NCBI GenBank assembly: GCA_964035545.1
Contig: OZ037770.1
Coordinates: 8,323,473 to 8,387,472 of the forward strand
Source of the DNA: Bugula neritina
Lineage: Eukaryota > Bryozoa > Gymnolaemata > Cheilostomatida > Bugulidae
Length of the DNA: 64,000 nt
Direction: 5' to 3'
Each line of letters starts with the position of its first letter. Positions within the stretch are counted from its first letter, which is position 1. Below the pieces are notes generated by a model, which was not told the DNA's origin, made no database searches, and saw only the letters and a program-made list of their open reading frames with translations. The position numbers were made by a program, and so were the translations under genes. Shown here one piece after another: positions 20,198 to 23,100 of this stretch.

Positions 20198-23100
20198 CTG
20201 TATTTCGTAATTACAACGGACAAAGCTGCACATGGTATAGTGACTGCTAAAAACTAGAAGTATATCACATTTAGTATCTAATAACAATAAATTAGAGAAT
20301 CATAGGGAATCTGAAAATTCCCTTGGTGATTGCTGCATATAGCCTATTGATAGAGTTATTTAAGCTAAATTGAAAAAGAAAACCTTCGGCAACAGATTCT
20401 CATAACTTGTAGCTTTAAAGAAAATTTTAAGTTGAAGCTCGAAATCTAAGAATAATTTAAACATTCAACTCTCTTTACATAATAATGAGTTTCAAGAATT
20501 GTCACAGAAATTTCGAAATTTTTAACAAAAGCTCATGCGTTTTAAAATGATTGAAACTCATTGAAAGACTAAAATATTACTTTGATTGTTTGGACTCAAG
20601 GGAACCAACTATAAATATACAAACGAATGCATAAATTTATGTCCTATGTGCAACTATTAACGGTTATGTTTGATTGATTGTAGATAGCAGTAAAGCTTTG
20701 ACTTGTACAAAGTATCTAAATTTGTTCAGATCTTAACTATGGTTCAGCTGTGTGTTGATGATAGCCTACCTCTGTCTGGACCATTCTACACCTGTATTCT
20801 CTCATCTCCATCACCAGGTTGAATATGTCTATCTCATCATGATCTTGAATACGTTGAAGAAGTCTATCAACAGCTATGTATGTGCCGGTACGACCAACAC
20901 CAGCACTGTCAAACATTGTATACACAATATTAATAGAGAACTGTTTAGAAGCATTTAAACATCTGCAGTGTAAAAGTATACCAAATAAAATGATACTTGC
21001 AGTGTAAAAGTATAACAGGTAATGTTACCTGCAGTTTAAAAGTATAACAAATAATGTTACCTGCAGGTTAGAAGTATAACAGATAAAGTGTTACCTGCAG
21101 TGTAAAAGTATAACAGATAATGTTACCTGCAGTGTAAAAGTATACCAGATAAAATGTTACCTGCAGTGTACAAGTATAATAGAAAAAGTGTTACCTGCAG
21201 GTTACAAGTATAACAGATAAAGTGCTACCTGCAGTGTACAAGTATAACAGATAAAGTGTTACCTGCAGTGTACGAGGATAGGAGAAGAACTTCCATCTAA
21301 CATTTGACTTCTCACTGCCATTACAAACTCTAGCAAAGCCTGTGGTTTTGATGGACATCCAGAGCTGGGCCAGAATGTTGAACAAATGTGTTTGATAGTT
21401 TGTATTGTTTCACCCTGGGAGTACAAAAACCGCAGACATTATGTAGCATAAGGACCAATAAAATGGTTTCATCACTTATATGTAGATTCACAACATTTGA
21501 TAATAAGTGCCAGCCAACAGCTTATAACACTGGATTTTCAGTTTAATGGACATGCTCAATTTGACTACATGAATAGAACAACAACAAAAACTATTGCACA
21601 AAGATTATAGCTTAACGTATTACCATACGTGAATAAATGTAGACATAACTCTATAAGAACAGCATGGGTCAAATGCATACATGTACAGTAAGCTACGAGA
21701 ACTTACCATTTGAATATTAAATATTCTGATGGTATATTCTGGAAGAACAGATTCAGCTTTCTTAGTTACAACTAAGTCACCATATGCTGCAGGTTCCTCT
21801 AGGGTGTCTGGCCAGTACTGTTCACACTGCTTTCTTCCTGAAACATTATCAATTGTTAGCAACTTACCTCTCTGTATAAGTTAATATACTTACTTCTCTC
21901 TGTAAGTTAACATACTTACATCTATCTATAAGTTAACATACTTACCTCTCTCTATAAGTTAGCATACTTACCTCTCTCTACATGTTAAAAATTTTACCTC
22001 TCTCTATATGTTAGAAATTTTACCTCTCTCTATTAGTTAATATACTTACCTTTCTCTATAAGTTGATATACTCACCTCTCTCTTTAAGTTGATATACTTA
22101 CCTCTCTTTGTAAGTTAATATACTTACCTCCCTCAATAAGTCAATATACTTACTTCTCTCTATAACTTAATATACTTACCTCTCTCTATAAGTTATTAAA
22201 CTTACCTCTCTCTATAAGTTAACATACTTACATCTCTCTATAAGTTAAAATACTTACATCTATCTATAAGTTAATATACTTACCTCTCTCTTTAAGTTAG
22301 CATACTTACCTCTCTTTATAAGTTAATATACTTACTTCTCTCTATAAGTTAACATACTTACCTCTCTCTATAAGTTAGCATACTTACCTCTCTCTATATG
22401 TTAAAAATTTTACCTCTCTCTATATGTTAGAAATTTTACCTCTCTCTATCAGTTAATATACTTACCTTTCTCTATAAGTTGATATACTCACCTCTCTCTA
22501 TAAGTTAATATACTTACCTCTCTCCAGAAGTTATTAAACTTACCTTTCTCTATAAGGTAACATACTCACTTCTCTCTATAAGTTAACATACTTACATCTA
22601 TCTATAAGTTAACATACTTACCTCTCTCTATAAGTTAGCATACTTACCTCTCTCTATATGTTAAAAATTTTACCTCTCTCTATATGTTAGAAATTTTACC
22701 TCTCTCTATAAGTTAATATACTTACCTTTCTCTATAAGTTAATATACTCACCTCTCTCTATAAGTTGAGTCAACATAATTATCATGCTGATATTCTGTCC
22801 CCAAATCATTCTCCAGAAATGGTTAACTGTGTTTGGTAGAGGACTCTGGGTAGCAATATAATCTTCCGTAGATGTCTTACCCTATTATTAATATATATAA
22901 ACTTAGCCTCTCAAATGCTGAAATTAAGATTAGGAATGCTTGTTTAAAAGCTGCACATTTAAACAAATAACATACTGAGAACTTTCATATCATGTGTGTT
23001 GTCTAGACAATTACTAAACAGGTGTGTCTAGATACATAGTTCAGCAATATATTTGAGAATTGTGTTTATATTCAGAATTATATGCATGGCTCTAAAAAAT

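Follow-up and report, generated by a model that had tools for sequence, protein, structure and literature searches.

The locus and its phosphatase gene

The window analysed here is a 64,000-nt stretch of the genome of the bryozoan Bugula neritina, spanning positions 8323473-8387472 of contig C6 (OZ037770.1) in the 215.8-Mb assembly GCA_964035545.1. It holds a phosphatase gene in which two introns, termed intron A and intron B, contain tandem copies of their own 5' splice site (Table 1). Ten exons, running from 25401 to 19709 on the minus strand, join in one clean frame with a receptor-type protein tyrosine phosphatase (PTP) domain (PF00102, E 5e-76), in agreement with the gene assignment made in an earlier reading of the sequence (the initial annotation). 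The exon preceding intron A, at 22881-22752, ends after the first base of a G codon, and the next exon starts at 21837; the spliced frame is contiguous across this junction against solved PTP domains. The spacing from the E to the C..YWP motif is constant in 179 of the 180 proteins in which the motif was found (233 proteins fetched), and the sole exception, a B. neritina model, lacks one residue exactly at the intron A junction. The exon end at intron A is fixed by this homology, and the exon and intron limits first assigned at 21838..22881 (intron 22751-21838, minus strand) are confirmed.

The donor array of intron A

Tandem Repeats Finder (TRF) identifies 34.8 copies of a 26-bp unit at 21862-22766. 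Intron A holds 35 GT donors, the true donor and 34 decoys, separated by 34 spacings of exactly 26 nt; GT is intact in 35/35, and there is no insertion or deletion between units. Each unit opens with a more or less altered copy of the last 15 nt of the exon (AACTTATAGAGAGAG), all 15 bases being unchanged in 7 of the 34 later units. The initial annotation had described about 34 copies of the exon's own 5' splice site, in a unit that spans the junction and repeats the last coding bases, and both points hold.

The first 34 units of array A comprise 26 different ones. Units 26 places apart differ at a mean of 0.88 positions per 26 (8 pairs) versus 4.4 overall, and the head and tail blocks of the array are nearly identical; the near-identity of units 26 places apart points to block duplications. 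The repeat joint (..CTAAC|TTATAG..) has AAC in common with both the exon (TCAAC|TTATAG) and the intron end (CTAAC|AATTG), which would fit a small microhomology duplication.

Compared letter by letter with CAG|GTAAGT, the true donor scores 7/9 and 18 of the 34 decoys score 8. By U1 pairing energy, none of the 34 decoys exceeds the true donor and two equal it. The assertion that many decoys match the donor consensus better than the real GTGAGT stands by letters and falls by energy. The branch-point-like TGCTAAC, taken at first as typical of the units, occurs only in four full units and in the terminal one, most units carrying TATTAAC or TGTTAAC. Use of any intron A decoy is computed to lead into an in-frame stop (34/34), as had been foreseen for decoy use, and AG precedes GT in 26 of the 34 decoys.

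A second array in intron B

Intron B lies two exons after intron A and carries units of 32-34 bp, each ending in TACACTGCAG or close to it, mostly followed by GTAACA. Eight of the nine exon-tail copies in this array precede GT and make eight decoys, seven of them with AG before GT; use of any one gives an in-frame stop (VHCR-stop, 8/8). Among 21 donors of the window picked by eye, only those of introns A and B have junction copies downstream. The remaining donors have a best downstream match of 8-11 of 14, as do most random places; 127 of 2000 such places score as high as 13-14 of 14, presumably by falling inside other arrays.

Two sequences retain intron B in an unexpanded state. In L040, a sister gene, the intron is 91 nt long, with one unit and without a decoy. 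The other is the B. neritina gene model P0149 (EB796_010255), whose frame changes in the preceding exon and then continues through intron B, probably an annotation error that preserves intron letters as protein. Its 29 extra residues score 83 against the intron collapsed to one unit, 68 against the full intron and at most 26 in 200 shuffles, and the intron B that it implies is 89 nt long. Because intron B is unexpanded in L040 and P0149, the order suggested is intron first, array later: by this comparison, intron B is older than its array, a case of growth and not of gain.

Table 1 Features of the phosphatase gene around introns A and B (positions in the window)
Feature	Position	Strand	Basis or remark
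PTP-domain exon, exon 6 of 10 mapped, end ...MLTQLIER-G	22752..22881	-	last 15 nt AACTTATAGAGAGAG form the 5' part of the repeat unit
5' splice site of intron A, GTGAGT	22746..22751	-	GTAAGT in the other 8 copies read
Intron A, 914 nt = 30 + 34 x 26	21838..22751	-	phasing, homology-placed exon ends
26-bp array, 35 junction copies, overlaps exon end	21862..22766	-	TRF, phasing
Final 30 nt of intron A from last decoy, GTAAGT TGCTAAC AATTGATAATGTTTCAG	21838..21867	-	acceptor outside array
Exon after intron A	21707..21837	-	homology
Exon ending ...SPILVHC, tail CTCGTACACTGCAG	21263..21414	-	homology
Intron B, 357 nt, true donor GTAACA	20906..21262	-	spliced frame
Second donor-spanning array, 9 units of 32 or 34 nt	20963..21272	-	TRF, phasing
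Non-repeat 3' end of intron B, 57 nt, holds acceptor	20906..20962	-	matched by B. neritina gene model and sister genes
Exon continuing catalytic loop, SAGVGRTG...MVQTE	20770..20905	-	homology

A copy-number series among sister genes

A protein search places a tandem cluster of related phosphatase genes within 0.41 Mb of contig C6, counted as nine, with L040 and L041 (10 kb apart, with complementary exons) taken as one gene. Intron A was read in L038, L039 and L041-L047, and intron B in L038-L040 and L042-L047 (Table 2). The array is present in all nine intron A copies, with 6-34 decoys, and the unit is kept in eight of the nine intron B copies, with 0-34. The length of intron A equals 30 + 26n exactly in five of the nine copies and within 1 nt in three more; the remaining copy is L045, whose 3' end is a different one. 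In 9/9, the acceptor is not part of the array. In eight of the nine, the exon tail is that of the unit, whereas in L042 the exon differs and its array does not. Two genes that are 98% alike share array A without a gap and differ in array B. Judging by this comparison of arrays A and B between sister genes, most of the gene duplications probably came after the arrays, and unit number changes easily. Without their units, eight of the intron A copies would be about 30 nt long, possibly too short to splice, and on that ground the array of intron A may be a spacer that cannot be lost. L046 mirrors the window gene in having its long array in intron B (35 exon-tail copies) and not in A. L045, with its different intron A 3' end, also has a diverged exon 8.

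Table 2 Length and decoy number of introns A and B in the sister genes
Gene	Intron A	Decoys in A	Intron B	Decoys in B
L038	265 nt	9	287 nt	6
L039	602 nt	22	291 nt	6
L040			91 nt	0
L041	576 nt	21		
L042	783 nt	29	157 nt	2
L043	498 nt	18	125 nt	1
L044	265 nt	9	223 nt	4
L045, other strand (G000:C6:8425800-8430500)	239 nt	6	684 nt	no array
L046 (G000:C6:8139900-8145000)	472 nt	17	1239 nt	34
L047	914 nt	34	357 nt	8

Eight other PTP loci were fetched and read by eye at both positions. L055 seems to have an intron at the place of intron B (HC, then AG|GTAAAG), and five of the eight cross that position without one. Near the position of intron A, two loci (L048 and L055) have an intron, placed about 5 nt downstream, and the other six lack one there. 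These eight loci do not show intron A to be an ancient PTP intron.

Tests for selection on the decoy donors

Across the nine intron A copies, GT is kept in 155 of 165 decoys, although the greedy way of cutting units may have scored a shifted unit as a broken GT once in L038 and once in L044. The consensus AG|GTRAGT is matched by 97 of the 165, and all nine true donors are intact. Divergence in the eight donor columns is 0.076 versus 0.090 elsewhere (P 0.38), and these columns are not clearly slower in array A of the window alone (P 0.14); in neither set does the test show selection on the decoy donors taken together. GT alone has a divergence of 0.030 in the 165 decoys (P 0.07), with P 0.047 in array A of the window. 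We take these values to mean that the decoys drift as they are copied and are probably near-neutral, any sign of constraint on GT being faint at most.

Probable donor arrays elsewhere in the genome

The genome was searched with a pattern of one octamer occurring three times at spacings of 20-50 nt; the counts of matches are lower bounds. The triple AGGTAAGT has 1689 matches genome-wide (803 + 886) and the reversed pattern 9 (3 + 6). A control broken at one base, AGCTAAGT, has 140 (77 + 63); these are raw counts, not scaled to the frequency of each octamer as a single, and the 140 come largely from a few big arrays. The first 100 matches listed for AGGTAAGT all lie on contig C1, up to 33.96 Mb of its 35.6 Mb, and represent, by eye, 23 arrays with different units; the broken control gives four arrays on C1.

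The 5' flank of all 23 arrays was read. Fourteen of them (L056, L057, L058, L060, L066, L068, L070, L071, L072, L073, L075, L076, L077 and L078) begin where an open frame of 37-245 residues ends. Most of these exons rest on an open frame that reaches the donor, and 12 of the 14 frames have at least 56 residues, with 44 in L072 and 37 in L066; the frame of L071 has 82 residues and a donor placed by eye. By chance, about two of the 23 sites would be expected to show a frame of at least 56 residues, on our rough figure of 6% stops per codon. Databases support five of the 14 (L058, L060, L072, L075 and L077). Homology to PDB entries reaches residue 56 of 56 in a caspase exon, residue 35 of 36 in a phosphofructokinase exon and residue 71 of 72 in an organic anion transporter exon; in a monocarboxylate transporter exon it extends to residue 65 of 70, five residues short of the donor, and for an ankyrin exon there is support from Pfam together with weak PDB matches. 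L056 has only immunoglobulin matches below the cut-off, L057 no Pfam match and L073 no PDB match. Copies of the exon tail in the unit were scored in 14 of the C1 arrays, with L059 included and L071 left out: at least 11 of 14 bases agree in eight arrays, 9 in four and 7 in two, and the best random GT site per flank matches 6-8 of the 14 exon-tail bases.

Crude scaling gives about 140 (by the span of C1) to about 390 (by matches per array) such arrays genome-wide. Sequence evidence of this kind supports the view that introns of this bryozoan would grow through donor arrays across the whole genome. The class as a whole, the second array in the gene and the series of sister genes all go beyond the initial annotation.

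Other features of the window

Among the 120 best matches per search, the best protein match to the window gene is a B. neritina model (89% or 86%), and none is identical. None of the B. neritina proteins P0001, P0149 and P0038 matches any of the loci L038-L047 throughout, and single exons of P0149 match at 100%. Pfam finds an FN3 domain in one exon of the window, and P0149 has fn3 and PTP_tm domains; these parts, with the PTP domain, are what was compared with the receptor phosphatase class R3 (FN3 repeats, one transmembrane stretch, a single PTP domain). Many near-identical FN3-type exons, one of them confirmed by Pfam, occupy 41.7-57.9 kb and 5.4-5.8 kb on the minus strand, pointing to repeated segmental duplication in what would be the ectodomain part.

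Two further pairs of minisatellites lie in duplicated segments: one 26-bp unit at 7131-7816 and 59444-59525 (26.4 versus 3.2 copies) and one 30-bp unit at 9472-9643 and 60708-61690 (5.7 versus 32.7 copies). Neither pair crosses a donor in the flanks viewed by eye. The units of an 18-bp array at 25427-25676 include GTGAGT and GTAGTT; an acceptor follows this array at a distance of about 25 nt, and no exon was seen by eye at the array's 5' end. A 1821-residue open frame at 12634-18096 on the minus strand has protease, reverse transcriptase, RNase H and integrase domains by Pfam, and we take it to be a Ty3/gypsy-like retroelement. A second, related copy lies at about 28.5-33.7 kb, by eye inside a long intron of the phosphatase gene.

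Origin of the arrays

We consider it likely that the arrays are minisatellites seeded at the donors of pre-existing spliceosomal introns. The repeat joints suggest a beginning in a short tandem duplication across the exon-intron border, which would have produced a second exon tail with its donor. Unit number would have varied from then on, as it does between the sister genes, where 6-34 decoys are found in intron A and 0-34 in intron B. Such growth would be tolerated since the exon retains an intact 5'-most donor and everything behind it stays intronic; with that site in use, the protein would be unchanged, and repeats seeded at donors would survive where repeats within exons would not. Mistaken use of a decoy would add a stop codon and the product would be discarded. 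mRNAs with a premature stop are removed by mRNA decay, and such removal of errors is to be expected here because every decoy gives a stop (34/34 and 8/8). Like events would have occurred at many genes, as the arrays on C1 support.

Some observations weigh against this explanation. No array-free intron A was found among the nine copies, all of which have at least six decoys, and for this intron we infer the starting state. GT alone is somewhat slower than the other columns, as function could also give. On C1, two of the 23 arrays (L059 and L061) have only a 20-residue frame in front of them, and seven (L062, L063, L064, L065 with a 31-residue frame, L067, L069 and L074) are without a convincing exon; these seven may follow untranslated regions or non-coding exons, or extend further upstream than the sequence fetched.

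A different account of how the arrays were seeded applies to the spread across genes: abundant minisatellites would cross donors by chance and be tolerated, with no link to the donor as such. There are about ten arrays per 64 kb, and with 45 donors per window the chance that a randomly placed array crosses a donor is about 1.6% (0.16 for ten arrays), which by our extrapolation could yield hundreds genome-wide. Yet two of the ten arrays in the window span a donor (P 0.005-0.03 for 30-80 donors), and matches to AGGTAAGT are 12 times commoner than those to AGCTAAGT, with the frequency of the octamers as singles not equalised. Chance alone is a possibility that we take seriously while leaning against it. 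That the arrays are an artefact of assembly is hardly credible: such repeats are hard to assemble and the exact copy number may be off, but the variety of units within array A (26 among the first 34), nine gene copies with different arrays and the uniform 26-nt phasing speak against it. Only slightly less improbable is the gain of these introns by tandem duplication of an AGGT exon segment (the Rogers model), which the AG|GT units and a clear involvement of tandem duplication would fit. The acceptor, however, is outside the array and unlike the exon in all nine intron A copies, and intron B is unexpanded in L040 and P0149, with an intron apparently present at its place in the distant PTP gene L055; for intron B, gain is already contradicted. 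The initial annotation had linked the layout to tandem duplication as a route of intron gain or growth, of which growth is upheld, strongly for intron B, and gain is not.

The remaining two readings concern what the decoys do; the initial annotation had offered a role as splicing buffer or regulator as an alternative. Donor-like sites may also curb premature polyadenylation (U1 telescripting), a further candidate role that was considered. As selected regulators, they would hold U1 small nuclear ribonucleoprotein or divert transcripts to nonsense-mediated decay and so tune phosphatase output. The many consensus decoys (97/165), the stop in every decoy product and the somewhat conserved GT are what such a device would show; the eight donor columns taken jointly are not slower, sister genes range from 0 to 34 decoys and the same device would be needed in many unrelated genes, and we judge this reading very unlikely. 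Less remote, though still improbable, is that the arrays restore themselves, which would add to seeding at donors rather than replace it. Here the AG|GT unit borders would serve as acceptor or donor and the array would be removed stepwise or with error correction: an insert left by decoy splicing starts with GT and ends with AG at the next exon, so that a second round could restore the mRNA, and splicing of the exon to the AG of a unit would likewise give the same exon end. Multiplication would then be harmless and a general route of growth, arrays would be invisible to selection, and introns could hold dozens of consensus donors. AG stands before GT in 124 of the 165 decoys. Recursive splicing sites have acceptor-quality sequence immediately in front of a donor, and the borders in array B have a pyrimidine fraction of 0.63 against 0.44-0.72 at the gene's true acceptors. 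Dual-specific AGGT sites in tandem repeats are documented for human UBC (PMC10809524). Conversely, the purine-rich borders of array A (0.40 pyrimidine) would make poor acceptors, a single step over a unit of 26-34 nt would be very short, and AG|GT arises automatically whenever a donor is copied.

Relation to known systems

In human segmentally duplicated genes, minisatellites of about 30 bp cross exon-intron borders with about four units on average and are said to give rise to new introns (De Grassi and Ciccarelli 2009, PMC2812944). Those repeats and the present ones have in common a border-crossing minisatellite in a recently duplicated family, a copy number that differs between paralogues and a changed intron length; the arrays described here differ in having up to 34 decoys, in being anchored at the donor, in occurring at many loci of one genome and, for intron B, in lying in a pre-existing intron. 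As in minisatellites generally, the units are arranged head to tail at about 10-60 bp and vary in number between sister genes. Dual-specific AGGT splice sites in tandem repeats are reported for UBC, VCX3A and 77 human introns (Duan et al. 2024, PMC10809524). The likeness lies in a unit border of AG|GT that is potentially donor or acceptor. The UBC repeat belongs to the coding sequence, and a whole number of units makes up the intron; by contrast, intron A measures 30 + 26n, intron B has a unique 57-nt end, the unit contains a stop and the true acceptor is not part of the repeat.

Intron gain by tandem duplication of AGGT segments (PMC4974935, PMC3443670) likewise involves duplication across AGGT; the closest in form is the 24-bp AGGT repeat of fission yeast genes that PMC4974935 cites. 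No new intron is needed in the present case and the old acceptor stays: in none of the nine intron A copies do GT and AG both come from one exonic segment, and, for intron B, the unexpanded relatives L040 and P0149 possess the intron. Latent donors, which are abundant across mammalian introns downstream of in-frame stops and must stay unused (Nevo et al. 2012, PMC3510495), resemble the decoys as consensus sites past an in-frame stop, and differ from the up to 34 near-identical copies in a single intron. The variable number tandem repeat in TERT intron 6 (PMC3948165) is also an intronic minisatellite whose copy number affects splicing; it acts by RNA pairing, which we count as a difference. Among the matches listed in our literature search, which covers titles and abstract openings with few subscription papers, none describes a pre-existing intron filled with its own donor, and exact searches for the unit in the viral and the bacterial/archaeal genome collections gave 0 matches each.

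The mutation mechanism, as read from the repeat structure, is one shared with the known border repeats, the dual-specific AGGT repeats and intron gain by AGGT duplication, and the defining mark of intron gain is absent.

How a donor is chosen among equals is an old question, usually posed with artificial duplications of a few sites. Here a natural series is available: intron B comes with 0, 1, 2, 4, 6, 6, 8 and 34 decoys, intron A with 6 to 34, and a good number of other genes would probably add to it. The cell would need to splice correctly ahead of dozens of look-alike donors, and what would make the first site win is an interesting question. The arrays also lay out a stepwise route of intron lengthening, from one unit to dozens, with the starting state still in the genome. 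What sets them apart from the known systems is the number of decoys, up to 34, an intron B that preceded its array, the graded series of sister genes and the many loci in one genome.

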